A stretch of 36,011 bases of DNA from Magnetococcales bacterium (GTDB taxonomy: Bacteria > Pseudomonadota > Magnetococcia > Magnetococcales > JADGAP01): NCBI GenBank assembly GCA_015231965.1, contig JADGAP010000014.1, forward strand, positions 1 through 36,011. The letters are read 5' to 3'. The position numbers and the translations under genes are program-made. Each line of letters starts with the position of its first letter. The stretch's first letter is position 1. Below the pieces are notes generated by a model. The model saw only the letters and a program-made list of their open reading frames with translations. It searched no databases and was not told the DNA's origin. This document shows positions 3,467-24,379 of the stretch, piece after piece.

Positions 3467-4492
3467 ATGTCGCAGATTCTGTCCAACGAGGAGATCGACG
3501 CCCTCATGGTGGGGCTGGAGGAGGGCTCCATCGACCTGTCGGAGGTGGAGGACGAAATTCCCGCCTCCGGCGTCGAGGAAAAAAAGGTCACCTCCTACTT
3601 TTTCGGACAGCAGACCGCCATCCGCGTCGGTTCCCTGCCCGGTCTGGACCTGATCAACGAACATCTGGCCTCCCAGTTGTCGTTCAAAATGAGCCAAAAG
3701 GTGGGGCGGGAGGTTCACGTTCAGCCCAAATCCACCATCAACCAAATTTTCGGTCGCTACCTGCACAGCCTGGATCCCCCCATTTTCATCAGCATCTGCC
3801 GGGTGGAGCCCTCCCAGTCCATGAGCCTGCTGTCGGTGGACGGCGAGGTGATGTATCACATGCTGGAGGGCTATTTCGGCGGCAGCGGCGAGTCGGAACG
3901 CCCCTTCCGCAACTTCTCCCCCTTCGAAATGAAGGTGACGGACCGCATCATGGACGTCTGCCGGGAGCAGATCGAACTCTCCTGGAAAAAACTCGATCCG
4001 GCCTTTCGCCTCATCTCCACCCGCTGGGAAAATCAGCCCCAGTTCGCGGCGGTGATGCCCTTGGACGAGTCGGTCTTTCTCATCTCCTTTTCGCTGGAGA
4101 TGGGGGATACCGAGGGCACCCTGACCATCTGCTTCCCCCAGGTGATCCTGGAGCTTTTCAAGCAGCAGCTCAAGTCCGGCTTCCAGCAGCGGGAGCATGT
4201 GGAGGGGGAGTCGTTCTGGGAAGCGGCCATGGTCCACGAACTCTCCTACGTGCCGTTGCGCTTCGATCCCATCGTCACCCGCATGACCATGAGCGTGCAG
4301 GAGATGCTCTCCCTCCAAATCGGCGATGTGGTGATGCTCAACGCCGACATGACCGAGGAGATGCAGATCGAGGTGGCGGGTCGGGTGAAATATTTGGGGG
4401 TCGGCGGGGTGTCCAACGGCAAACGAGCGATCAAAATCACCCAAACGGTCACCGATCCCAACCTGTATCAACGCAAGGATCACACCCTTTGA
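3467..4492 (+). CDS. fliM: flagellar motor switch protein FliM
   Basis: This is a full-length FliM of 341 residues. The N-terminal peptide ILSNEEIDALMVGL at about residues 4-17 is the conserved segment that binds phosphorylated CheY. The middle CheC-like domain contains the family motif LPGLDLINEHLASQL. The C-terminal SpoA domain (about 250-325) packs with FliN in the C-ring, where the complex sets rotation direction. AAAAGGAG lies four to five bases before the ATG. fliL precedes it by 63 bases and fliN follows after a 127-base gap containing hairpins, so it belongs to one cluster. Confidence 0.95.
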   Translation: MSQILSNEEIDALMVGLEEGSIDLSEVEDEIPASGVEEKKVTSYFFGQQTAIRVGSLPGLDLINEHLASQLSFKMSQKVGREVHVQPKSTINQIFGRYLHSLDPPIFISICRVEPSQSMSLLSVDGEVMYHMLEGYFGGSGESERPFRNFSPFEMKVTDRIMDVCREQIELSWKKLDPAFRLISTRWENQPQFAAVMPLDESVFLISFSLEMGDTEGTLTICFPQVILELFKQQLKSGFQQREHVEGESFWEAAMVHELSYVPLRFDPIVTRMTMSVQEMLSLQIGDVVMLNADMTEEMQIEVAGRVKYLGVGGVSNGKRAIKITQTVTDPNLYQRKDHTL

Positions 4493-4619
4493 TCCCTGCC
4501 GCGGGCTCCCCCGCGCCTGATGAAACCCACCCGGACGGCCCCGCACTACGCTCCTCCGGGGAAATGGACCAACGACCGCGGTTTTCCGCAACCGCGCAAC
4601 ATCTAGGAGTGGAGGAATC
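4493..4619 (+). promoter_or_regulatory. fliM-fliN intercistronic gap with two small hairpins
   Basis: Two inverted repeats are visible. CGCGGG/CCCGCG (4500-4505 with 4510-4515) lies just after fliM. A 7-bp perfect stem CGCGGTT/AACCGCG (4577-4583 with 4590-4596) lies before the fliN ribosome-binding site. Neither is followed by a T run, so these are not intrinsic terminators. They could be RNA processing or stability elements in an otherwise tightly spaced operon; that role is inferred. Confidence 0.4.
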
Positions 4620-5021
4620 ATGGCGACTCGCGGATTCGGCGACGATGAAGATTCCGGCAGCGGCCTGATGGACGAAGAACTGGAAGAGCTGGCCAAACCA
4701 AAAAAGAAGAAAACCGGGGAGATGGACCTGGATATCGGCGATCTGAACTTCGAGGCCACACCCAAAAATCTCGATCTGCTCATGGATGTGCCCCTGGACG
4801 TCTCCGTCCGGCTGGGCCACGTGCGGATGCAGATCCGGGATCTGCTCAAGCTCAACAAGGGTTCGCTGGTGGAGTTGGAAAAAGAGGCGGACGAACCCCT
4901 GGAGGTCTACGTCAACGACCGGCTGCTGGCCTACGGCGAAGTGGTGATGATCAAGGACAAGCTGGGCATCCGCATCACCGACATCGTGTCGCTGGCGGAA
5001 CGGCTGGAGAATTTGCGTTGA
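4620..5021 (+). CDS. fliN: flagellar motor switch protein FliN
   Basis: The 133-residue product has an acidic and lysine-rich N-terminal extension (about residues 1-50) followed by the SpoA domain. Readable family landmarks are DVPLDVSVRLGHVRMQIRDL, then LNKGSLVELEKEADEPLEVY, VNDRLLAYGEVVMI and LGIRITDIVS. FliN forms the lower rim of the C-ring with FliM and helps dock the export ATPase complex. A good site, GGAGTGGAGG, precedes the ATG. The fliO start overlaps the fliN stop, implying translational coupling. Confidence 0.95.
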   Translation: MATRGFGDDEDSGSGLMDEELEELAKPKKKKTGEMDLDIGDLNFEATPKNLDLLMDVPLDVSVRLGHVRMQIRDLLKLNKGSLVELEKEADEPLEVYVNDRLLAYGEVVMIKDKLGIRITDIVSLAERLENLR

Positions 5022-5440
5022 CCCTGCCCCTCTCCTCCCCTGGCGACGCGCGACGCGCTCCCCTGGCGCTCCTGGCGCTCCTGGCGCTGGGGTGGGTCGG
5101 CGCGGCCTGGGCGGGCGAGGGAAACGAGGCGGCGGTGGGCGGCGGCGCGGCGGATCCGGCGGAGTTGCTGGGTCGGCTGGTGCAGGTGTTGGGATTTCTC
5201 CTCGCCCTGGCGGTGGCCGCCGCCCTGCTGCGGCGCTACGGCAAGCGGTGGGAAGGCAAGTTTTCCGGCGGTCCCATCCAACTGCTGGCGGGCCGCAATT
5301 TCGCCCCCGGAGTGGGGGTGCGGTTGATCCGGGTGGGGTCGCGGAGCTGGCTGGTGGGGGTCTCTCGGGAGCGGGTGGTTCCCATCGCCGAGTTGACCGC
5401 CGAGGAGGTGGCCCAAGCCCTCCGGGAGCCCGGGCCATGA
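5018..5440 (+). CDS. fliO: flagellar biosynthetic protein FliO
   Basis: This small membrane protein of 140 residues sits where fliO is expected. It has an N-terminal hydrophobic signal-like stretch (about 15-32), a second hydrophobic helix at about 52-68 (LVQVLGFLLALAVAAALL), then a cytoplasmic domain with the FliO-type pattern IQLLAGRNFAPGVGVRLIRV. FliO assists assembly of the FliP ring of the flagellar type III export gate. The start is TTG, overlapping the fliN stop as TTGA, and the stop overlaps the fliP ATG as ATGA. FliO is poorly conserved, so position carries much of the call. Confidence 0.88.
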   Translation: MTLPLSSPGDARRAPLALLALLALGWVGAAWAGEGNEAAVGGGAADPAELLGRLVQVLGFLLALAVAAALLRRYGKRWEGKFSGGPIQLLAGRNFAPGVGVRLIRVGSRSWLVGVSRERVVPIAELTAEEVAQALREPGP

Positions 5441-6243
5441 CGACGCCCTCCCCCCCCTCCCTCCGAGGCTGGCGAACCCCCCGCCTCTCCCTGGCCCTGC
5501 TGTTGGGGGTCGCCGGGGCGTTGTTCGGGCTGTGGCTCGGCCTGGAACCGGCCTGGGCGGCGGAGGCCAAGGGCGGCGGCGGTCTGCCCTTCCTGAACTT
5601 CGACACCGAGCAGGATCAGGTCTCCACCTCGCTGCAAATCCTGGCGCTGATGACGGTCTTTTCCCTGGCGCCGGGAATTCTCATCATGTTCACCTCGTTC
5701 ACCCGGGTGATCGTGGTGATGTCCTTCGTGCGGCAGGCCATGGGGTTGCAAGGCCAGCCCCCCAACCAGGTGTTGATGGCCCTCTCCCTCTTCATCACCT
5801 TTTTCGTCATGGGGCCGGTGGTGGATTCGGTCTACAACGACGCCCTGCGCCCCTATCTGGACAAGCGCCTCAAGGCCGAGGAGGCCTGGGGCAAGGCCGT
5901 CACCCCGGTGCGCAACTTCATGATGCGCCAGACCCGGGAGAAGGATTTGGAACTCTTCCTCCGTCTCTCCGGCGTCACCAAGGCCCAGACCCCGCAGGAG
6001 GCCCCCATGCGCCTGCTGATCCCCGCCTTCATGATCTCCGAACTCAAAACCGCCTTTCAGATCGGCTTTCTCATCTACCTCCCCTTCCTCATCGTCGACA
6101 TGGTGGTGGCCAGCGTGGTCATGTCCATGGGCATGATGATGCTCCCCCCCCTGGTCATCTCCATGCCCATCAAGCTCATCCTCTTCGTCCTGGTGGACGG
6201 CTGGGCGCTGGTGGTGGGCTCCCTGGTGCAGTCCTTCCGCTGA
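5437..6243 (+). CDS. fliP: flagellar export gate protein FliP
   Basis: This is a 268-residue FliP with a cleavable-type signal sequence at about residues 15-40 followed by the classic core: SLQILALMTVFSLAPGILIM, MFTSFTRVIVVMSFVRQAMG, PPNQVLMALSLFITFFVMGP and the C-terminal IPAFMISELKTAFQIGFLIY with VMSMGMMMLPP. FliP forms the main ring of the inner-membrane export gate with FliQ and FliR. The ATG overlaps the fliO stop; an open frame extending far upstream is only a GC-rich read-through. In many proteobacteria fliQ, fliR and flhB follow, but here the cluster ends and an accessory island begins. Confidence 0.95.
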   Translation: MTTPSPPSLRGWRTPRLSLALLLGVAGALFGLWLGLEPAWAAEAKGGGGLPFLNFDTEQDQVSTSLQILALMTVFSLAPGILIMFTSFTRVIVVMSFVRQAMGLQGQPPNQVLMALSLFITFFVMGPVVDSVYNDALRPYLDKRLKAEEAWGKAVTPVRNFMMRQTREKDLELFLRLSGVTKAQTPQEAPMRLLIPAFMISELKTAFQIGFLIYLPFLIVDMVVASVVMSMGMMMLPPLVISMPIKLILFVLVDGWALVVGSLVQSFR

Positions 6244-6356
6244 CGCCCGCCATCCCATCCTGGACAATAATAAACATTTCGTTTACTATAGTAGTTCCAA
6301 TTGAAATTTGCACATACGGGGATTGTAGATGTAAGGAACCCATGCCCAAAATGAAT

Positions 6357-6384
6357 CGTCATTCCCGCGAAAGCGGGAATCCAG
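6357..6384 (+). repeat. inner arm of MITE A (dRS3-like palindrome)
   Basis: CGTC, then the 20-base palindrome-like ATTCCCGCGAAAGCGGGAAT, then CCAG. The core fits the ATTCCC-N8-GGGAAT pattern known as dRS3 in Neisseria. All 28 bases are identical to the arm at 18748-18775 in element B. Confidence 0.85.
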
Positions 6385-6571
6385 CCGTTGATTCCATACG
6401 CCTTACCTCATCACCACGACAAAATAGTTCCCCATAGTACCTACTCATTCTAAGAAGTACAATATAATCATCGATTAACGTAGGCCGTTCCACGGATTGC
6501 CTTTCGACGCTTGAATGAAAGTCTGTCCATTTCATCTTGGACGCAAGACTGGAGTTCCAAAGACACAAAGG

Positions 6572-6599
6572 CTGGATTCCCGCTTTCGCGGGAATGACG
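6572..6599 (-). repeat. inverted inner arm of MITE A
   Basis: This is the exact reverse complement of the 28-base arm at 6357-6384, so the two arms could form a large cruciform or hairpin about 240 bases across. The sequence after it, TTTTCGTGGGGAAAGTTGGT, resembles the corresponding flank in element B. Confidence 0.85.
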
Positions 6600-6683
6600 T
6601 TTTCGTGGGGAAAGTTGGTGGTGCCCCCCCGACGCCGCTCGATGTTATGCGCCCTTTTTAGTTGGAACGACGATATTGAGGCC

Positions 6684-6964
6684 ATGATCCGAACCTTTTC
6701 CGACAAAAAAACAGCGGCCATTTTCGCGGGACGGTTCGTCAAGGGGATCGCGCCGGAAATCACCGCTCGCGCCCGGATGCGTTTGTTGCAAATCCATCAT
6801 GCGCAAAGCGTGGAGGATTTACGCCTTCCGCCGTCCAACCTCTGGAAAGGCTCCTCGGCGACCGGGAAGGGCAATGGAGCCTCCGCATCAACCACCAATG
6901 GCGGGTCTGCTTCCGGATCGTGGATCAAGACGCCTTCGATGTGGAAATTGTGGACTACCACTGA
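6684..6964 (+). pseudogene. higB: HigB-type mRNA interferase toxin, frameshifted
   Basis: Translation from the ATG at 6684 gives a normal HigB N-terminus (MIRTFSDKKTAAIFAG, then VEDLRLPPSN). The frame then diverges after AAC at 6837-6839. The -1 frame starting near 6839 supplies the rest: LERLLGDREGQWSLRINHQW, VCFRIVDQDAFDVEIVDYH, then TGA at 6962. One missing base around 6839-6842 would restore a standard toxin of about 93 residues that cleaves ribosome-associated mRNA. As read, the toxin is broken; a sequencing error or programmed -1 shift remains possible. Intact higA follows nine bases later. MITE A ends eight bases upstream, where the promoter would be expected. Confidence 0.85.
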
Positions 6965-6973
6965 GGAACCGAC

Positions 6974-7321
6974 ATGGCCATCCCAATGGACGATCTTTCC
7001 CACCTTGACCTGGAGGACATCACCACGGGGGAGCGCATCCCGCCCGCCCATCCCGGGGATTTTTTGCGGGAGATCATGGAACAACGGGAACTCAGCCAAT
7101 ACCGACTGGCCAAGGCGCTGGGGGTCTCGGCCATGCGGATCAGCCACCTGGTTCATGGTCGCAGCCCGATCACGGCGGAGATGGCCCTGCGCCTGGGGCT
7201 GTTTTTCAACCAATCCCCGGAATACTGGCTCGGACTGCAAACCCAATACGACATGGACACGGCCAAAATCCGGCTGCTGGAACGCCTGCGCCAGGAGATC
7301 ACCCCGCTCCACGCCGCCTGA
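6974..7321 (+). CDS. higA: HigA-family antitoxin (XRE helix-turn-helix)
   Basis: This 115-residue protein has the HigA layout: IPPAHPGDFLREIMEQREL at about 22-40, then an XRE helix-turn-helix (SQYRLAKALGVSAMRISHLV, about 41-60), then ITAEMALRLGLFFNQSPEYW and a helical tail. HigA neutralises HigB and represses the operon by binding its promoter. It is intact although its toxin is frameshifted, leaving what may be an orphan antitoxin. GAGG lies seven bases before the ATG, within the higB end region. No separate promoter was seen, so expression probably comes from upstream of higB or from MITE A. Confidence 0.92.
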   Translation: MAIPMDDLSHLDLEDITTGERIPPAHPGDFLREIMEQRELSQYRLAKALGVSAMRISHLVHGRSPITAEMALRLGLFFNQSPEYWLGLQTQYDMDTAKIRLLERLRQEITPLHAA

Positions 7322-7465
7322 CGCCCTCAACGCCTCCCGGCGGATTCCTCCGCGGGTGGGAAAGGCGGAGGGACCGCCTCGCACTTGAAGATTCCGAACC
7401 TTTTCCATCCCGCCATGAACCTCGGGACGGAAAACGACGGCCCCATCGCCCCGCAACCGGAAGGA

Positions 7466-7870
7466 TCATGGGGCCTGTTCCGCCAAGGCGTCCACGATCT
7501 CCTCGATTCGACGCAACAAGACGGAAATCCGCTCGATCAGTTCCATGCGTTCCAACGGCGGATCTGGACTCTCCAACCAAGTATATCGAAGCTCGACGGC
7601 GAACGGATATAAATCGCTCCATTGCCAGAGCTCCGTCATCTCCACCCCCTGCTTCGACAGCAGGGAAAGCAGGCGGTTGATGTCATGCGTCAGGGGAAAA
7701 GTGACCCCCAATCCGGCAAGCCAAGCCTTGAGCCCCTTCTCCACCGCCTGTTGGGCGTGAAACCCGAAAATGGAGTCGGGAAAAACCTCTCGATCCACCA
7801 TGCCGGTCATCGCCCTGTGATCGACTCGGGCCAACTTCAGCAGCATCCGGGCGTGGTCAATGCCGTTCAT
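7466..7870 (-). CDS. HEPN-domain protein, partner of the MNT nucleotidyltransferase
   Basis: A 134-residue all-helical HEPN protein. Typical landmarks are SIFGFHAQQAVEKGLKAWLA near residues 33-52, then FPLTHDINRLLSLL, and a Tyr-rich segment DLYPFAVELRYTWLE. HEPN/MNT pairs act as toxin-antitoxin modules in which the MNT protein neutralises the HEPN ribonuclease. The canonical RX4-6H catalytic motif of toxic HEPN proteins is not visible, and the sequence resembles the FHAQQ..EK..KA subgroup whose activity is less clear. The ATG overlaps the upstream MNT gene by 14 bases, implying coupled translation. The pair is convergent with higA. Confidence 0.85.
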   Translation of the reverse strand: MNGIDHARMLLKLARVDHRAMTGMVDREVFPDSIFGFHAQQAVEKGLKAWLAGLGVTFPLTHDINRLLSLLSKQGVEMTELWQWSDLYPFAVELRYTWLESPDPPLERMELIERISVLLRRIEEIVDALAEQAP

Positions 7871-8192
7871 ACAGCACCCGTCCCTCCCCCAAGGCGCGGG
7901 CGATGAGATGATTCTTGGCCGTTCGCCATTGCTCCACCTCGTCGCGACTGAACAGCACGATATCCTTGGAGACGGGAAAATCCATCAACAACCGCCCCAG
8001 CCGAACCATGGTTTGGCGGCGGCTGTGGTTCAGGCCATAGGATTCGGAAGTGATCACCAGCAGATCCACGTCCGAATCTTCCCCCGCCTCGTCACGGGCC
8101 TGGGAGCCGAAGAGAATGACGCTTTCGGGATGGACCGCCTCGACAATAAGCCGGGCCATGGCTTGAAGCATTTCGTCGGAAACCGTGGACAT
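7857..8192 (-). CDS. MNT-type minimal nucleotidyltransferase (MntA-like)
   Basis: A 111-residue minimal nucleotidyltransferase. The hallmark GSX10DXD motif is intact: Gly29-Ser30, ten residues, then Asp41-Val42-Asp43 (ILFGSQARDEAGEDSDVDLL). Relatives act as antitoxins that AMPylate their HEPN toxin. I chose the ATG at 8192 because AGAGG lies about nine bases upstream; an in-frame ATG at 8237 would add 15 residues unlike the family. It is followed directly by the overlapping HEPN gene. Upstream, about 76 bases separate it from the nucleotide-sugar dehydrogenase gene on the same strand, so read-through is possible. Confidence 0.9.
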   Translation of the reverse strand: MSTVSDEMLQAMARLIVEAVHPESVILFGSQARDEAGEDSDVDLLVITSESYGLNHSRRQTMVRLGRLLMDFPVSKDIVLFSRDEVEQWRTAKNHLIARALGEGRVLYERH

Positions 8193-8268
8193 GGGGCATC
8201 GCCTCTCGCCTGAAGCTCCGAAACCTGTTTGTTCCATCCTGGCAAAATTCGCGGCAAAAGAAAAGCGT

Positions 8269-9657
8269 TCAGGCGAATCGCCCCCGCCCGACGCCCCATC
8301 CGCCGCATCCCGCCGCCGCCACTTGCTGGCGCTGCTCCGCCGTCAGCACGCCGTTGGCGTCGATCACCACGCCGCGCCACCCCGCCAGCCAGCGGCTTAA
8401 ATCCAGTTGGCGATAAAATTCGTGGGCCACGGCGAAGACCACCCCGTCGAAACCGGCGGGATCGGGCAGAGAGGGGGGAAGGTCCAGGTTCAGCTCCTCC
8501 CAGTGGCGCACCAGGGGGTCGTGACAGACCACCTCCCCCCCCTCGACCCGCACCGCCTCGACAAAGGTTTGGGAGGGGGATTGCCGGGTGTCCGCCACCT
8601 CCGGACGATAGCTCACCCCCAGCAGCAGCCACCGACGCCCGGCTAGGCTCTCCCCCCCCAGCGCCCGCCGCAGCAGCGCCAGGGTGGCCAGGGGCATGCG
8701 CTGATTCAAGCGGGTGGCCTCGCGGCAGAAGGGAAACTCCAGCCCTTCCAGCCCCAGCAACTGCCGCGCCCCCACCTCGGCGAAGAGGGTGTCCTTGGTC
8801 AGGCAGTATCCTCCCACGCCGAACCCCGGCCAGCGCATGTTGGCGTGGGTCGGACGCTGGCGAATCGCCTCCACCACCTCGAACAGATCAAAATCCGCCG
8901 CCTCGGCGAACCGCCCCCACTCCTCCATCAGGGCGATGGTGACGGCGCGAAAGCTGTTTTCCAACACCTTGGCCGTCTCCGACGCCCGCACCGAGGAGAG
9001 GCGGGTCAAGGGAAACTCCCGAACGTTGACCACCTTGGAGAGAAAGGCCTCGCAGGCGTCGGCGGCCTCCGGGGTAAGCCCGGCGTAGACCCGCCAAAAA
9101 TCGACGATGGAGGCCAGATAATCGGCCCCCGGCATCACCCGCTCGTAGGCGTGGGCCAGGAGAAAGCCCTCCTCCGGCAGCCCCCGGCGGGCGAAACATT
9201 GGGCCAGTTCCGGGGCGACCACCCGTTCGCAGGTTCCCGGGGGAACCGTGGTCTCCACCATCACCAGACATCCCGGGGGAATCCGCTCCCCCACCGTGCG
9301 CACCGCCCGGCGGAACCCTTCCAGGGCCACGGTGGGATGGTCCAGCGTCCCCCCCAGGTCCAGCCCCACGTCCACCACCACGACTTGCGCCTCCCGCAAG
9401 GCGGCGGGATCGACGGCGGCCCGCAGGTTGCCCTGGCGATGGACCTCCGCCAGGGTGCGGGTCAGACGTTGGTCGGTGTTGGGAAAGGGGAACTCCCCCC
9501 GGTTGAGTCGCGCCACCCGCTCCACCCCGGCGGGGGTGGGAAGCTCCAGTCCGGCGACCTCGAACCAGGGGTGCCCCGCCTCGTCCCGCGCCGCCGCCGT
9601 CGCCGCCGCCATCGCCGAACCGACGAAGCCCAACCCCAGCACACAGACTTTTATCAT
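8269..9657 (-). CDS. UDP-glucose/GDP-mannose dehydrogenase family protein
   Basis: A 462-residue NAD-dependent nucleotide-sugar dehydrogenase, which oxidises the C6 hydroxyl of a UDP- or GDP-sugar to a uronic acid for surface polysaccharide. The N-terminus is a Rossmann fold (VCVLGLGFVGSAMAAA). The central domain has ASETAKVLENSFRAVTIALM (about 225-244) and the catalytic-Cys motif GFGVGGYCLTKD with Cys285. The C-terminal UDP-binding domain includes LLGVSYRPEVADTRQSPSQT. The substrate cannot be decided from sequence. The ATG at 9657 begins right at the Rossmann strand. A longer frame adds 12 residues. It follows the SGNH-like gene by 88 bases, possibly in an envelope-polysaccharide cluster. 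Confidence 0.9.
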   Translation of the reverse strand: MIKVCVLGLGFVGSAMAAATAAARDEAGHPWFEVAGLELPTPAGVERVARLNRGEFPFPNTDQRLTRTLAEVHRQGNLRAAVDPAALREAQVVVVDVGLDLGGTLDHPTVALEGFRRAVRTVGERIPPGCLVMVETTVPPGTCERVVAPELAQCFARRGLPEEGFLLAHAYERVMPGADYLASIVDFWRVYAGLTPEAADACEAFLSKVVNVREFPLTRLSSVRASETAKVLENSFRAVTIALMEEWGRFAEAADFDLFEVVEAIRQRPTHANMRWPGFGVGGYCLTKDTLFAEVGARQLLGLEGLEFPFCREATRLNQRMPLATLALLRRALGGESLAGRRWLLLGVSYRPEVADTRQSPSQTFVEAVRVEGGEVVCHDPLVRHWEELNLDLPPSLPDPAGFDGVVFAVAHEFYRQLDLSRWLAGWRGVVIDANGVLTAEQRQQVAAAGCGGWGVGRGRFA

Positions 9658-9745
9658 CGCATCGCCCGCCTTTTCCCCACCGTCGGCCCTCAACCCTCCC
9701 CAAGGGAGGCGTCGCCCAACGACGCCCCCCCGGGTTTTTCCGGAA

Positions 9746-10993
9746 TCACAACGCGCCGCAGCCCTGGTTCCGTTGATCCTGCTTCAGATAGTCCGCCAAC
9801 GCCGCCCCCAACGCCTCGTACCCCTGGGGGTTGAGATGGTGCCAATCCCGGGGACCATGTATCGCCGCCTCCCGGGCCTTCTCCCGCAACGCCGGACGGG
9901 CGTCATAAAATCCCGCCCCCTCCTGCCGACTCACCATGGCCGCCAAACCGCACAGGGCGTTGCTCGCCTGGGCCGGCAGGGCGGTTTCGTACCGCTCCTT
10001 CCAATCCTTTTCATCCCGTTGGATAAACACCTGGGCACCGCTCATGGCGTAGGCGTTGACCACCGACGGCAGATAGACCACCCGCAGATCCGTCTCGGGA
10101 AAATTTTGCTTGAGATAACCCAGCACGGCGGCGAACATCCGCCCGGCGAACTGCAACTTGCCCCCCTCCATCGTCAGAGGGGGCGCGGCCAGACGATCCG
10201 GGAGAAAAACCTCTTTCCCGCCGACCGTCGCCTGATTGACCGTCCCCGCCGGGGGCGGCGCTTCCGCCCGTTTGACTTCCAGCCGTTGCAAGGCCGGGGG
10301 TTTAGCCTCCCGCAGCCGCTTGAGGAAGGCCAGGCCGGTCCAACTTTTTTCCCACGGCTCCGCCACCCGCCCCGCCAGATCCTCGCTCAAGTCCCGCCAC
10401 ACCCCATCCTCGATGGGCGTGCCCCGCATCTTGACGATCATCTCCCCCAACTGCTGCTGCATGGGGGGGCTTTGCAACAAGGTTTCAAACCCCTCCTCCC
10501 CCTCCACCGTCTCCTGGATGAAGCTCAGCAGCTCGCCGAAATCGTCGGCCTCGGAGAACAAGAGCAGCGCCTGCCGGGGAGGGGGCAGGGGATGGGGGGT
10601 GGCGCGGGACTCCTCCAACGTTCCGTACAAGGCGACCGCCGCCTGCACCGGCCCGCCTTGGGCCGCGCCGAAGGCCAGAACGTCCCGGTTCAAGGCGCGA
10701 TGCAGTGCCAGGGCCGGGGTCATGGGGCGACCGCCGGAGGCCAGGGCGGCGAGCAGTCCGTCGCCGTATCCCAGGGCGTGGCCATCCCCCAGCAGGGCGA
10801 GGTAATCCCCGGCAGGCGAGGTTCCCGCCTTGGAGGATTGGGCCAGGGGACGATCGGTCATGGCCAGCCGCTCCCCCACCCCCGCCGGAAGCCGCGAGGT
10901 CAACGCGGGATAAACCAGCCGGTCGAACCCCGCCAACAGCAGCGGAACCGCCAACAACGCCCCCCAAACCGCCCTACCGGATCGCAAAAACAC
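9746..10993 (-). CDS. membrane-anchored SGNH-hydrolase-like protein with Gly at the nucleophile position
   Basis: A 415-residue protein with one N-terminal membrane helix (about 8-24), followed by an extracytoplasmic SGNH-like domain resembling those in polysaccharide acetylation. Block I reads ALLGDGHALGYGDG (about 66-79). The usual catalytic Ser after GD is Gly71, one base away from AGC. The C-terminal block DWHHLNPQGYEAL (about 383-395) keeps the Asp-x-x-His pair. I chose the GTG at 10993 because GGAGGGG lies seven bases before it and it sits just after the surA stop; the longer open frame overlaps surA. Loss of the nucleophile suggests an inactive or binding role, or that the true nucleophile is elsewhere. 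Confidence 0.75.
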   Translation of the reverse strand: MFLRSGRAVWGALLAVPLLLAGFDRLVYPALTSRLPAGVGERLAMTDRPLAQSSKAGTSPAGDYLALLGDGHALGYGDGLLAALASGGRPMTPALALHRALNRDVLAFGAAQGGPVQAAVALYGTLEESRATPHPLPPPRQALLLFSEADDFGELLSFIQETVEGEEGFETLLQSPPMQQQLGEMIVKMRGTPIEDGVWRDLSEDLAGRVAEPWEKSWTGLAFLKRLREAKPPALQRLEVKRAEAPPPAGTVNQATVGGKEVFLPDRLAAPPLTMEGGKLQFAGRMFAAVLGYLKQNFPETDLRVVYLPSVVNAYAMSGAQVFIQRDEKDWKERYETALPAQASNALCGLAAMVSRQEGAGFYDARPALREKAREAAIHGPRDWHHLNPQGYEALGAALADYLKQDQRNQGCGAL

Positions 10994-11007
10994 CGACAGT
11001 CCCCTCC

Positions 11008-12405
11008 TCAACGCATCTCCACGAAGGAACGCATCCGCAGATCCCGCAAAAATTGCTCGAACCGCTCCTGAATGCGGGCCTCCATCAAACGCTGACGGAT
11101 GGTCTCCCGCTTGGCCCGCACCGAGTTGGGCTCCAGGGTCCGCTTCTCCTCCAGCCAAATCAGGTGCCAGCCGAAGCGGGTGCGCACTGGCCCCGCCACT
11201 TGGCCCGGCGTCATCTCCAGCAGCGCCTTTTCAAACTCGGTCACCATCACCCCTTCGCCAAACCAGCCCAGATCGCCGCCGTCCCGGGCCGACTCATCCT
11301 GGGAAAAGCGCTTGGCCAGTTCGTCAAAGGGGGAGCCGGTGCGATGCTCCCGCAAAATCTCCTCGGCCTTGAGCCGCTGCCGCTCCGCGCTATCCTCCCC
11401 CTCCCGCTTGTCCACCTTGAGGACGATATGGCGCACCTTGAACTCCGTCATCGTCTGCTGCGCGGCGTCGCCGCCCGCGCCCCGCCGGTCGAACACCTGG
11501 AAAATGTGAAACCCCTGGCGGGACTGGAAGACGTCGGAAACCCCGCCCTTGGGCAGGGAGAAGATCATCTCCTCCACCTCGGGCAGCAGCTGGCCCCGCC
11601 GCAGCCAACCCAAATCCCCCCCCTCCAGGCCGCGATGGTCATCGGAGTACTGCGCCGCCAGGGCCTGCATCGCCCCGCCCCGCTTCAACTTGCCGTGCAA
11701 CTCCTCCGCCAGTTTTTGGATCCGCGCCGCCTCCCGGGGGGCGGTGTTGGAGCCCAGGGCCAACAAAATCTGCCCCACCCGCACCTCGCTGGCCTCCCCC
11801 ACGGTGGACTCCCGCTTGAGCAGATCCTCCACCTCTTCGTCCGACACCGTGACCAGCGGGGCGATGCGCGCCTGAATGATCCGGTTGCGCAACAACTCCT
11901 CCGCCAGCTTGCGCCGGTAGTCGTCCAGCTTGATCCCCTCCTTGGCCAGGGCCTTGGGCAGGGTTCCGGGGGCCATGTTGTTGTTTTTCTCCACCACGGC
12001 CATGGCCCCGTCGATGTCGGCGTCGCTGATGGTCACCCCCGCGCCGTTGCCCTCCATCTGCAAAAGCTTGTTCATGATCAGCCGGTTGATCACCTGCTGA
12101 CGCACCCGGGAGGGGTCCACCTCCTGCCCCGAGGCCCGCAATTTGCGCAACAGCGGCTCGGCCTGGGCGTCCACCTCGGTCTGGGTGACGATCCCCTCCT
12201 CCACCGGCTCCTTGCTCACCTGCCGGTTGGAAAGAACCGCCACGATGCGATCCAGGGAGTCGGCCGCCGCCGCCGGAGACGGCCCAAAGACCTCGCCGGA
12301 GGTCGCCATCACCCCCCAAACCGCCGCCGCCCCAAGGGCACAGCGCCAAACCCGGCCATTCCATCGATGGATGCTCACGTCCCGCCACCTCGTCCGCGTC
12401 ATCAT
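11008..12405 (-). CDS. surA: periplasmic chaperone / peptidyl-prolyl isomerase SurA
   Basis: A 465-residue SurA with a signal sequence near residues 20-48, an N-terminal chaperone domain (DRIVAVLSNRQVSK, then the conserved NRLIMNKLLQMEGN) and two parvulin domains at about 206-307 and 321-421. Both carry the family signature: GGDLGWLRRGQLLPEVEE in the first and GGDLGWFGEGVMVTEFEKAL in the second. SurA escorts beta-barrel proteins such as LptD to the outer membrane, so its overlap with lptD (ATGA at 12402-12405) fits the common lptD-surA pairing. A GTG at 12378, preceded by GAGGTGG, is an alternative start that would still leave a signal peptide. Confidence 0.93.
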   Translation of the reverse strand: MMTRTRWRDVSIHRWNGRVWRCALGAAAVWGVMATSGEVFGPSPAAAADSLDRIVAVLSNRQVSKEPVEEGIVTQTEVDAQAEPLLRKLRASGQEVDPSRVRQQVINRLIMNKLLQMEGNGAGVTISDADIDGAMAVVEKNNNMAPGTLPKALAKEGIKLDDYRRKLAEELLRNRIIQARIAPLVTVSDEEVEDLLKRESTVGEASEVRVGQILLALGSNTAPREAARIQKLAEELHGKLKRGGAMQALAAQYSDDHRGLEGGDLGWLRRGQLLPEVEEMIFSLPKGGVSDVFQSRQGFHIFQVFDRRGAGGDAAQQTMTEFKVRHIVLKVDKREGEDSAERQRLKAEEILREHRTGSPFDELAKRFSQDESARDGGDLGWFGEGVMVTEFEKALLEMTPGQVAGPVRTRFGWHLIWLEEKRTLEPNSVRAKRETIRQRLMEARIQERFEQFLRDLRMRSFVEMR

Positions 12406-18747: not shown

Positions 18748-18775
18748 CGTCATTCCCGCGAAAGCGGGAATCCAG
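18748..18775 (+). repeat. inner arm of MITE B
   Basis: This 28-base arm is identical to the one at 6357-6384, built on the ATTCCC-N8-GGGAAT pattern with CGTC before and CCAG after. Confidence 0.85.
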
Positions 18776-18863: not shown

Positions 18864-18891
18864 CTGGATTCCCGCTTCCGCGGGAATGACG
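18864..18891 (-). repeat. inverted inner arm of MITE B
   Basis: The reverse-complement arm with a single substitution (GCTTCCGC instead of GCTTTCGC in the core). It is followed by GGTTTCGTCGTGGGGGAGTT, similar to the flank in element A. Confidence 0.85.
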
Positions 18892-20397: not shown

Positions 20398-20964
20398 CTA
20401 CTGGCCCAGCACATCCAAAATTTCCCGGGTGGATTGGATCACCCGCACCACCTTGTCCCCCACCACCCGCACCTCATGTCCGGCGGGCAAGGGGGGCAGG
20501 CGACGCAGCACGTCCTCCGGCAAGGGATGCGACTGACGATAGAGATCCTGGTCCATCCGCTCCCCCCGCGCCAGTTTTTTTTGCCAACCGGGCGGCAACG
20601 CCTCCCCCCGGGCCGCCTTCTTCGCCAGACCAGGGGGCAGGTTCTTCCCCCCCTGGCGGCTCTCGCCGCCCCCCGAACGTCCCAGAAAATCGTCCAGCAC
20701 CCGACGGACTTCGTCGGAATCCCAGCTTCGCCCATCCCGCAACGATTTTCCCGAAGCGCCTTCCCGCCCGTCCCGGTGATCGTCCCGGCGTTGATCGTGA
20801 CGTTCGTTGTCCCGCGACTCTTGACGCTGCTGCTTTTTCCGCTGACCGGGAGGTCCGCCTCCCTCATCCTCCTCGGCGTGGGGAGGCTTGGCCCACGCCC
20901 CGTCCCCCGCCCCCAACAGCAGCAACGCCGCCACCAACATCGCCAATCCACGAGGGTGCTTCAT
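20398..20964 (-). CDS. secreted CigR/RcnB-like protein
   Basis: A 188-residue exported protein. Residues about 5-25 form a signal peptide ending near GAWAKPP. The middle (about 35-70) is a very hydrophilic Gln, Arg, Asp and His-rich stretch. The C-terminal half has the CigR-type repeat LPPGLAKKAARGEALPPGWQ, then LPPLPAGHEVRVVGDKVVRV and a closing helix. Family function is not settled: CigR is an anti-virulence effector in Salmonella, and RcnB-like proteins act in periplasmic metal homeostasis. GGGAGG lies before the ATG at 20964. It sits between the ATPase/TOPRIM-like cassette and thrC on the same strand. Confidence 0.7.
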   Translation of the reverse strand: MKHPRGLAMLVAALLLLGAGDGAWAKPPHAEEDEGGGPPGQRKKQQRQESRDNERHDQRRDDHRDGREGASGKSLRDGRSWDSDEVRRVLDDFLGRSGGGESRQGGKNLPPGLAKKAARGEALPPGWQKKLARGERMDQDLYRQSHPLPEDVLRRLPPLPAGHEVRVVGDKVVRVIQSTREILDVLGQ

Positions 20965-21020
20965 GAGGATGCCTCCCTGTTCCTGAAAAATCCCTGAAAT
21001 CCATTCACGCCCTGGGAGAT

Positions 21021-21599
21021 TCACGCATTCATCAACTCCCGCAACCGCAACCATTCGCTCCGCGCCGCCCGCAAGGAGGGCATGGCGGGCTCGTTTTCCG
21101 GGAATCGAAACGATTCGATGAAGGATCGAGCCATGTCCCGGGCATGAACCGGAAGCTCCTTGCTGTATTTATCCTTGAATTTCTTGCCCCCAAGTATCGC
21201 CTGCTCTTCGTTGGATTCACCAGTCAGAAAAAAGTGATACCAGTTCTCCAGACACCATTTCGGCGCAATGATGGCGACCGCCTCATCATTTTTCAATGGA
21301 ACCTTACCGTTTTTCTTCAGGCAGACCGCCAACTCACGGTAATGCTGTTCAACGCTCCCCTTGTCGGCATCCAACACAACAATGAGCGCAATTCTCCGGC
21401 TTCGTCCCCGAATCGAGGAAAGCGCCAAGGGATAATTATCCCGAACCCATTGTTCCGCCGACCCCTGACTTGGCGGAGCCATCCTTTTGACAATTTGATG
21501 GGGTTCCAGCCCCTTTTCACTCAGGAATGCCTTGGCGAAGCGGTAATGGTTCTCGTCCTCGCACAAGATAACCGCTCGCCATCCACCCAATCTAGTCAT
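21021..21599 (-). CDS. TOPRIM-like small protein coupled to an AAA ATPase
   Basis: A 192-residue protein I cannot place in a named family with certainty. Three spaced motifs suggest a TOPRIM-type metal site like that of DUF4276/DUF4435/RloB-type proteins: an early acidic motif ILCEDENHYRFAKAFL (Glu14), a strand ending in IALIVVLDADKGS (Asp77 and Asp79), and CLENWYHFFLTG (about 116-127). The ATG at 21599 overlaps the ATPase stop by eight bases and has GGGGGTGG seven bases upstream, so the two are translationally coupled. Base composition is lower in GC than in the neighbouring serA and thrC. ATPase plus TOPRIM pairs recur in phage defence; the role here is inferred. Confidence 0.7.
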   Translation of the reverse strand: MTRLGGWRAVILCEDENHYRFAKAFLSEKGLEPHQIVKRMAPPSQGSAEQWVRDNYPLALSSIRGRSRRIALIVVLDADKGSVEQHYRELAVCLKKNGKVPLKNDEAVAIIAPKWCLENWYHFFLTGESNEEQAILGGKKFKDKYSKELPVHARDMARSFIESFRFPENEPAMPSLRAARSEWLRLRELMNA

Positions 21600-22743
21600 C
21601 GATGATCCACCCCCATTCCACCAAGGTGGCGATGGGTAACTCATCTCCCTCCGCTTCCCTGGCGATGCGCTTGAGCCGGGTATGACCCGATCCTCCTTCC
21701 CGATAGAACCAGATCCCCCGCTCCTCGGCGAGAAAATTGATGATCCTGGGATGGTGGGAAATCAGGATGCACTGGCCCTTGGGTTCGGGAGTGTTCATTA
21801 ACTCGTCGATCCGGTCCAGCCAGGGCTGCACCTCCCGGAGCGCCAGATAGTTTTCCGGCTCATCGATAAAGAGGGTGACTCCTTCTGTTTCCTTCAAGAC
21901 GGCAAGAAGCGCGTAAAGAACGAGCAGACATTTTTGTCCATGGGAAAGCCCGTGGATAGGAATGCCCCCTCTACCTTTTCCATCGACGGAGAAAACGGAT
22001 TGCAGTTGGTAAAGTTCCCCTCCCATCTTCGCTGTTTGCATTCCCAGGAATCCGGGAAAGAGTCGGCGCAGCGTAAGTGTGAGATCAACCGCAAGATCCG
22101 CCTGGATGACATGCTGATACCATAATGCAAACCGCTCCAGGTCAAGACCTGGATTCACGAGTTGGTTCCAAACCGCCGAACCGGGTTGATAGTCCGAAGC
22201 AATAGACGAAGGATTGATCCGGATGAGCAACAGATTCGAACGCAACCATTCACGAAACCAAGACAATTTGCGATTGTCCGGCCCTTCCATCAACCACCCC
22301 ACGCCAGATCGCGACCATTCGAGATTAAATTCGGGTCCGGAACTCCCGTCATCCCTGAACAAACGCGCCTTCGGCGCTTTGAACTCAAAAAGTTGCCTGC
22401 CGTTGAAGGTCAAAGACTCCTCAAGCATATGGAAACTTCGGTAAGGTTGGGAGTGTTCAATAACCAAACGGTAGAGGTAGGCACCGCCGTTTCCATCAAC
22501 CTGCAACTCGAATATCTGCTCGGCATACTGAGTGGAGGAAGGTTCCCAGAAAGTGCAATCCTGCTTCTGGAAGATCGATTCGACCGTCTCCTGGTCCACG
22601 ACAAACCGCCGCAGTTTGTCCAGCGCGTCCATGACGGCGCTTTTGCCGGAGCCGTTCTCCCCCATCAGCAGGGCGAAGCGGTCCAACTCCAGGGTGAAGT
22701 TGACCAGGCATCGAAAATTGTCGACGTAGAGCTTCTTCAACAT
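21592..22743 (-). CDS. AAA family ATPase (SMC/RecF-like), likely defence component
   Basis: A 383-residue ABC/SMC-type ATPase. The N-terminus MLKKLYVDNFRCLVNFTLEL is the usual start of RecF/OLD-like proteins. Walker A is GENGSGKS (28-35), the signature is LSHGQK (266-271), Walker B is LFIDEPEN (291-298) and the switch His is in ISHHP (about 330). The region between Walker A and the signature is about 230 residues without a long coiled coil, similar to ATPases of two-gene anti-phage systems. No nuclease domain is fused; the adjacent TOPRIM-like protein could supply one. It starts 50 bases downstream of serA on the same strand, with GAGG before the ATG. Confidence 0.9.
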   Translation of the reverse strand: MLKKLYVDNFRCLVNFTLELDRFALLMGENGSGKSAVMDALDKLRRFVVDQETVESIFQKQDCTFWEPSSTQYAEQIFELQVDGNGGAYLYRLVIEHSQPYRSFHMLEESLTFNGRQLFEFKAPKARLFRDDGSSGPEFNLEWSRSGVGWLMEGPDNRKLSWFREWLRSNLLLIRINPSSIASDYQPGSAVWNQLVNPGLDLERFALWYQHVIQADLAVDLTLTLRRLFPGFLGMQTAKMGGELYQLQSVFSVDGKGRGGIPIHGLSHGQKCLLVLYALLAVLKETEGVTLFIDEPENYLALREVQPWLDRIDELMNTPEPKGQCILISHHPRIINFLAEERGIWFYREGGSGHTRLKRIAREAEGDELPIATLVEWGWIIDD

Positions 22744-22792: not shown

Positions 22793-24379
22793 TCAGTAGC
22801 GGATCTGCCGCACTTCCAGCACGTTGGTGACTTGGGCGAGGCGATCCATCACCGCTTGCGAGGCCTCCTGGTCGGTGTTGATGAAGGCGATGGCCCGGCC
22901 GCCGACGTGGTCGCGGCCCAGGTGGAAGTTGGCGATGTTGATCCCCGCCTCGCCGAGGATCGAGCCCACCCGTCCGATGAGGCCGGGGGCGTCCTGGTTG
23001 GCGATGAAGAGCATGTTGCCCTCCGGCGCGGCCTCGATGGGGATGCCGTCCATCTCCACCAGCCGGGGCTGTTCGCCGTAGAGCAGGGTGCCGGAGACCG
23101 AACGCTGCCTTTTATCGCAGATGACGGTGGCGGTGATCAGCGAGGTGAAGCCCCGTTGCGCCCGGGGTTTGGTGGAGACATCCATCTCGATGCCCCGCTC
23201 CTTGGCGATGACCGGGGCGTTGACCATGTTGACCCCCGGATCCAGCATCGGAGCCAGGATGCTCTTGAGAATGGTGGTGGTGATGGGCATGCGGTTGAGG
23301 TCCGCCACCTCGCCCTCGTAGGCCACCTCGATGCGCTTGACCCCGGTGGTGGCCATCTGCCCCAGGGTGGTCCCCAGCTTGTCGGCCAGGTTGAGGTAGG
23401 GGCGCAAGATCGGCAGCTCCTGCTCGGAAACCGACGGAATGTTGACTGCGTTCTGAATCGTCCCCTTGAGCAGATAGTCGGCGATCTGCTCCGCCACCTG
23501 CACTGCCACGTTGACCTGCGCCTCCTTGGTCGAGGCCCCCAGGTGGGGGGTCAGCACCACGTTTTCGTAGCCGAACAGGGGATGCTCCTGGGCCGGCTCC
23601 ACCTCGAAGACGTCCAAGGCGGCGGCGAAGACCTTGCCCGAATCCAGGGCCGCTTGCAGCGCCGCCTCGTCGACGATGCCGCCCCGAGCGCAGTTGACGA
23701 TGATCACCCCTTTTTTCATCCGGGCGAAGGCGTCGGCGTTCACCAGATGGCGGGTCTTGGCGTTGAGCGGGGTATGCAGGGTGAGCAGATCGATGGTCGG
23801 CCAGAGATCCTCGGGGGTTTCGGCCACCTCGACGCCCATCTCCTCGGCCCGCTGGCGGGAGAGGAAGGGGTCGTAGACCATCACCCGCATCCCCAGGGCC
23901 TTGCACCGCTCCACCACCAGCGCCCCGATGTTGCCCGCGCCGATTACCCCCACCGTCTTGTGATAGAGTTCCACCCCCATGAAGCGGTTTTTCTCCCACT
24001 TGCCCGCCTTGGTCGAGGCCGTGGCCGCCCCGATTTGACGGGCGGCGGCCATCATCATGGCGACGGCGTGTTCGGCGGTGGTGATGGAGTTGCCGAAGGG
24101 GGTGTTCATGACGATGATCCCCCGCTTGGAGGCGGCGGGGATGTCCACGTTGTCCACCCCGATGCCCGCCCGCCCGATCACCCGCAGCCGACCGGCGGCC
24201 TCCAGCAGTTCGGCGGTGAGCTTGCTGGCGGAACGAATAGCGACGCCGTCGTATTCGCCGATGATGGCCTTGAGTTCAGCGGGAGGAAGGCCGGTCTTGA
24301 CCTCCACCTCCACCCCCCGCTTGCGGAAGACCTCCTCGGCCAGGGGGGACATTTTATCGGCGATAAGCACTTTCGGCAT
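22793..24379 (-). CDS. serA: D-3-phosphoglycerate dehydrogenase
   Basis: A 528-residue long-form SerA, the first enzyme of serine synthesis, oxidising 3-phosphoglycerate with NAD. The nucleotide loop is GVIGAGNIG (about 144-152). Catalytic residues are Arg232 in NCARGGIVDE, Glu261 in DVFEVEP and His279 in TPHLGAST. Residues after about 315 form the intervening domain, and the C-terminal ACT domain (from about 455) contains GNMLFIANQDAPGLIGRVGS and GINIANFHLGRD, the site of serine feedback in this class. The ATG at 24379 has AAGGA eight bases upstream; the open frame before it is unlike the family. Confidence 0.96.
   Translation of the reverse strand: MPKVLIADKMSPLAEEVFRKRGVEVEVKTGLPPAELKAIIGEYDGVAIRSASKLTAELLEAAGRLRVIGRAGIGVDNVDIPAASKRGIIVMNTPFGNSITTAEHAVAMMMAAARQIGAATASTKAGKWEKNRFMGVELYHKTVGVIGAGNIGALVVERCKALGMRVMVYDPFLSRQRAEEMGVEVAETPEDLWPTIDLLTLHTPLNAKTRHLVNADAFARMKKGVIIVNCARGGIVDEAALQAALDSGKVFAAALDVFEVEPAQEHPLFGYENVVLTPHLGASTKEAQVNVAVQVAEQIADYLLKGTIQNAVNIPSVSEQELPILRPYLNLADKLGTTLGQMATTGVKRIEVAYEGEVADLNRMPITTTILKSILAPMLDPGVNMVNAPVIAKERGIEMDVSTKPRAQRGFTSLITATVICDKRQRSVSGTLLYGEQPRLVEMDGIPIEAAPEGNMLFIANQDAPGLIGRVGSILGEAGINIANFHLGRDHVGGRAIAFINTDQEASQAVMDRLAQVTNVLEVRQIRY

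Follow-up and report, generated by a model that had tools for sequence, protein, structure and literature searches.

A patchily distributed ATPase-TOPRIM gene pair in the Magnetococcales: a probable defence module whose effector resembles RloB and DUF4276 proteins

An ATPase gene accompanied by a gene for a small TOPRIM protein is the plan of RloA-RloB and AbiL (AbiLi/AbiLii), AbiLii being of the RloB type, and also of HEC-01, where an ATPase is paired with DUF4276 (PF14103); our literature search brought up no experimental work on either HEC-01 or DUF4276. In PARIS (AriA-AriB, class 4 OLD), the OLD-type ATPase and the TOPRIM protein are likewise encoded by separate genes, both genes and both active sites are required (PMC9122126), and AriB is a two-metal tRNase (PMC12409363). 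The OLD nucleases and GajA of Gabija join an ABC ATPase and a TOPRIM domain in one polypeptide, and OLD and Gabija are DNA nucleases (PMC10568477). OLD-ABC plus TOPRIM conflict systems were catalogued earlier as an architecture (PMC12839542).

The two genes described here, A and T (Table 1), lie in a 36,011-nucleotide stretch of a Magnetococcales contig (hereafter the window) and share the two-gene plan of these systems. Unlike the fused OLD and GajA proteins, A and T are separate ORFs in all eleven pairs and, unlike in Gabija, no helicase gene is adjacent to them in the window. An earlier note on this DNA had proposed an anti-phage system of PARIS-like or RloAB-like layout, a reading which is partly supported by our data: the two-gene ATPase-TOPRIM plan stands, with T nearer to RloB and DUF4276, whereas no DUF4435 was found and no PF13707 cut-off was passed. 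Among other reasons, this grading reflects the fact that the window copy is alone among housekeeping genes, outside any recognisable defence island.

Table 1. Positions of the A-T pair and of its flanking genes in the window
Feature	Position	Strand	Description
Gene A	21592..22743	-	383-aa OLD/Rad50-like ABC ATPase, presumed sensor/regulator
Gene T	21021..21599	-	192-aa TOPRIM-like protein, presumed nuclease effector
A/T overlap, 8 nt, ATGACTAG	21592..21599	-	T start and A stop
serA homologue	22796..24379	-	Flank, outside the system
Predicted secreted protein, gap between T and thrC	about 20398..20970	-	Flank, outside the system

The T ORF as listed (21644-21021, minus strand) is open as far as an earlier ATG, at 21644; the ATG at 21599 is the start that agrees with the homologues and, judged by this agreement, is likely the true one, giving the length in Table 1. 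It is also the start that fits the residue numbers E14 and D77 of the earlier note. With it, the two genes overlap as had been claimed, and the shared ATGACTAG suggests translational coupling of A and T; in each of the 11 pairs, a possible T start lies within -11 to +17 nt of the end of A. The flanks had been given as serA and thrC. Indeed, serA is the immediate upstream neighbour, 52 nt from A on the same strand; thrC, however, is separated from T by an ORF for a predicted secreted protein, which has an N-terminal hydrophobic stretch and for which a Pfam scan gave no match.

The cassette has a lower GC content than its neighbours, as the 28 G or C in the 60 letters of line 21181-21240 had indicated: A and T have 53.8% and 53.4%, respectively, against 65.7% for serA and 64.6% for thrC. 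At 53.7%, against a median of 64.5%, the cassette falls below every 1,723-bp segment sampled in the 36 kb, and its GC3 is 0.63-0.65 versus 0.84-0.90 for comparison. No terminal repeats or tRNA marking an element boundary were found around the pair, and a promoter scan at the locus gave a result no better than chance. The short element GATTCCCGCTTTCGCGGGAATGAC is present in the window in four copies (none expected), arranged as two inverted pairs (6358-6381 and 6575-6598, 18749-18772 and 18867-18890), and related copies also occur close to a homologous A-T pair (L012).

Protein A is an ABC ATPase of the OLD/Rad50/PtuA kind with every nucleotide motif, as had been read from the letters: Walker A GENGSGKS (about residues 28-35), Q76 and the signature LSHGQ (266-270), followed by Walker B/Glu LFIDEP (D294/E295) and the H-loop SHHP (H330). 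The key residues of Walker A, signature, Walker B and H-loop are invariant in the 11 homologues aligned, and a fused TOPRIM domain is absent from A. The best PADLOC match is AbiLi (4e-21), with further matches to HEC-01A, mad3 and AriA, and HEC-01A is matched by all 11 A proteins. Foldseek analysis of the predicted model (pLDDT 82.6) leads to Rad50, OLD nuclease and Septu/retron PtuA at about 1e-11, reaching OLD 6p74 at 6e-12. Above the Pfam cut-offs, A scores 61.4 bits with AAA_21 and 58.6 bits with AAA_15, and both values also exceed the thresholds by which PARIS is detected (AAA_15 at least 32 or AAA_21 at least 27 bits, with a DUF4435 (PF14491) partner of at least 27 bits; PMC9122126). For the partner, DUF4435 is not among the families matched by the 11 T members, and a DUF4435 search of the window's own genome gave no match. 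In the class of OLD-ABC ATPases with a separate TOPRIM protein, A has the expected Walker A/B, signature and H-loop motifs, and T, according to its model, would be the neighbour that carries E and DxD in fold order.

The small protein had been described as having Glu, DxD and E-N-W motifs in TOPRIM order, and both alignment and model bear this out. All 11 T proteins have E14, D77, D79, P113, E118, W120 and E131 unchanged, and the ten homologues share 27-34% identity with the window T. In the AlphaFold2 model (pLDDT 87.9, pTM 0.86), the predicted order of elements is beta1-E-alpha1-beta2-alpha2-beta3-DxD-alpha3-beta4, with E14 lying past strand 1 and ahead of helix 1, the DxD in the step from strand 3 to helix 3, and E118/W120 on the helix that follows strand 4; this order of E, DxD and later Glu is that of TOPRIM domains. 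The best BFVD match of the model, a weak one, is an RloB-like phage protein (E 0.009, probability 0.93), and Foldseek against the PDB gave none below E 0.006, with lumazine synthases first and retron Eco2 at rank 16. Since the PDB fold matches are weak, the TOPRIM call for T is based on the order of its motifs and structural elements and on the comparison of profiles. A PDB sequence search with the T profile returned chance-level matches only, and neither the window copy nor the family passed a curated cut-off of Pfam or NCBIfam, so the protein stays without a name, as the earlier note had left it. PADLOC likewise offered no usable name for T when scanned with the single protein. COR-A and 4TM Effector, both weak matches without the motif logic, were rejected as the identity of T.

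An HMM-HMM comparison of T with DUF4276, RloB and DUF4435 had been suggested, and it places T near the first two. Among the small TOPRIM proteins of the same order, hhalign gave probabilities of 72% with the DUF4276-like group, 90% with L097, 47% with L080 and 40% with RloB, against at most 0.5% for reversed-profile controls, the hhalign E-values being those of single comparisons with no database calibration. The alignments with the DUF4276-like group and with RloB are in register through E, DxD and ExW, that with L080 covers E, DxD and the E118 region, and that with L097 begins past the first Glu. Because a few wrongly chosen ORFs (e.g. L132, L151 and L121) are present in the wider DUF4276/RloB alignments, weight is placed on the comparison with the DUF4276-like group and on the RloB row. 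RloB and DUF4276 reach 35% with each other. For DUF4435, to which the PARIS effector belongs, the value with T is 0.5%, near the reversed control of 0.1%. On these profile-profile scores, T appears to be nearer to RloB and DUF4276 than to DUF4435, and looks like a sister family of the former two.

The likeness to RloAB and AbiL concerns both genes, as AbiLi is the best PADLOC match of A, an RloB-like protein is the best viral structure match of T, and the RloB and T profiles align in register. Unlike RloB, however, no member of the T family reaches the PF13707 cut-off, T has LCED where RloB has (I/V)CEG and PxxNxExW where RloB has SNPCFELW, and an RloB search of the window's own genome finds another locus. 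HEC-01B gives weak matches in up to five of the 11 T proteins (best 1.5e-4), and the best DUF4276 match is 0.2; neither HEC-01B nor DUF4276 matches the window T, which stays below the PF14103 cut-off, and DUF4276 genes distinct from T are far commoner in genomes of the order. It is a tentative suggestion, and one that may well not hold, that T forms a distinct TOPRIM effector lineage, separated from both RloB and DUF4276 by a distance like that between the two, and with its own trigger and substrate; A-T would then add another class to the split OLD-type defence systems.

Small TOPRIM genes are abundant in the order, with DUF4276 in 37 and RloB in 34 of the 61 genomes searched; up to five DUF4276 matches occur per genome, and four in the window's own. 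That genome also contains a second T-like ORF (L035, 9617-10336), which hhalign aligns with the T family at 96%. It lacks the N-terminal Glu motif, EAD replaces DAD, V replaces the E of ExW, and a repetitive Pro/Glu tail reaches the contig end. By its residues, this ORF is likely an inactivated or repurposed paralogue.

Ten homologous A-T pairs were found, nine of them spread over eight genomes of the order and the tenth in a Spirochaetaceae MAG. The T search took in 100 relatives; within the order it gave ten places, distributed over nine genomes with the window's own included, and the Spirochaetaceae contig was found separately. A search with the A profile (E <= 1e-30) recovers exactly the same ten places in the order. 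In all 11 pairs the gene order is A then T, every T lying directly downstream of an A homologue. This constant adjacency, together with the identical outcome of the A-only and T-only searches, makes A and T an obligate pair in all data seen. Over 399 genomes of the phylum, the T profile at 1e-6 found nothing beyond the order and one weak second match in the window's own genome. No copy of the pair was present in the phage and plasmid records searched, nor of T in a scan of viral contigs. A survey of variable loci, also proposed earlier, shows the pair in 9 of 48 genomes of the order, patchily and at differing sites, mostly solitary among housekeeping genes and not in defence islands; one genome (G026) carries two diverged pairs. 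The two outcomes named in the earlier note as contrary to its reading did not occur; the T model keeps the TOPRIM element order and the pair does not occupy a constant, core-gene-like site.

Cyanobacterial ATPase matches were set aside as outgroup ATPases, and L079 (E 3.6e-4) was dropped, as no A homologue is found there. L077, an A-like ATPase with a different small partner, was not counted as a member; on this cyanobacterial plasmid the ATPase is followed by a 164-aa protein (5101-5595) that has no Pfam match and shows a possible PED...DFD pattern; it is perhaps another small TOPRIM partner. In L016, a 1785-aa WD40-repeat protein (3957-9856), preceded by an HTH gene with an MqsA-like match, is encoded a few kb from the A-T pair.

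A and T travel together from genome to genome, with turnover and transfer of the pair. The A proteins of L015, L017 and L020, which belong to three families, are 61-75% identical, and their serA 73-77%; between non-sister copies inside one genus, the values are 30-45% for A and 86-92% for serA. The A-T phylogeny is discordant with that of serA, tree support being limited. At the sole shared site (L013/L014), A and T are 56% and 54% identical and rank last among 13 syntenic genes; the others are 68-99% and both immediate neighbours 88% identical. The dN values there are 0.34 and 0.38 for A and T versus 0.007-0.26 for the others, with dS near saturation, and allelic replacement would look alike. 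In the serA loci of 29 relatives, neither A, T nor thrC was found within up to 1.5 kb downstream of serA, where other genes are located. A different ATPase plus DUF4276 pair lies on the 3' side of serA in another genome (G036; L078 6309-8056), between purF and serA. Pairs of an ATPase and a small TOPRIM protein may have landed repeatedly in the neighbourhood of serA, homology of the sites being judged from serA alone.

We regard A-T as probably a mobile defence module of two genes, one for an ATPase that acts as sensor and one for a TOPRIM nuclease that it gates. A RecF/Rad50-like ATPase and a TOPRIM nuclease could also form a chromosomal repair or maintenance module that acts on host DNA and has no defence role, comparable to archaeal Cran1, an OLD-family protein with a cell-cycle role and apparently none in antiviral defence (PMC12796447). 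Indeed, A is as much like Rad50, RecF and RecN as it is like defence ATPases, and the L020 copy adjoins sbcD, with sbcC near (genes named by eye). Cran1, however, is conserved throughout its order (PMC12796447), unlike A-T, and proved impossible to delete, and the presence of the pair in just nine of 48 genomes, its variable sites, serA-discordant phylogeny and fast evolution render a repair function unlikely.

Two overlapping genes that are patchy and mobile would also suit a mobile element's toxin-antitoxin or addiction module, kept by post-segregational killing, with T as toxin and A as its ATP-dependent neutraliser. Directly downstream of A-T in L012 is a pair encoding an NTase-substrate-binding protein and a nucleotidyltransferase (MNT-HEPN-type; 10362-11098), and a gene with MqsA-like/HTH matches is situated about 10 kb from the pair in L016. 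We nevertheless consider such a module improbable, given that the plasmid records searched hold no A-T copy and that, in PARIS, deleting either gene is non-toxic, which excludes toxin-antitoxin there (PMC9122126); this explanation also overlaps with defence. Furthermore, T might be no nuclease but sense nucleotides or nucleic acids through a domain of TOPRIM-like or other Rossmannoid type, which would be consistent with the weak PDB fold matches headed by lumazine synthases and with the altered motif residues of the T-like ORF of L035. However, invariance of the acidic residues in 11 proteins only about 30% identical is difficult to account for if they have no part in catalysis or metal binding, and we find a non-nuclease role very unlikely.

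By analogy with the described systems, the pair most likely serves in defence against phages or plasmids as a TOPRIM nuclease gated by an ATPase; for A-T, we infer binding, gating, nuclease activity, substrate, trigger and defence alike. In such a module A, compact and without a nuclease domain of its own, would dimerise via its nucleotide sites, bind T and sense a signal from a phage or other invader, T being inactive or sequestered as long as the signal is absent. Once triggered, T would act as a small two-metal TOPRIM nuclease, using E14, D77/D79 and probably E118 and E131, and would cut either tRNA, like AriB, or DNA, like OLD and GajA. This cleavage would stop phage growth through abortive infection.

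T represents a predicted nuclease family which no database model names yet, within an architecture that is already known; what is new here is the effector family and its distribution. Split ATPase-TOPRIM pairs are recurrent in bacterial immunity, with the sensed signal and the cut target known for few, and in the A-T family the effector is compact, eleven natural pairs have diverged from one another, and the residues to mutate are clear. PADLOC, Pfam and NCBIfam models miss lineages with the ATPase-TOPRIM architecture, here in genomes that are rich in DUF4276 and RloB genes.
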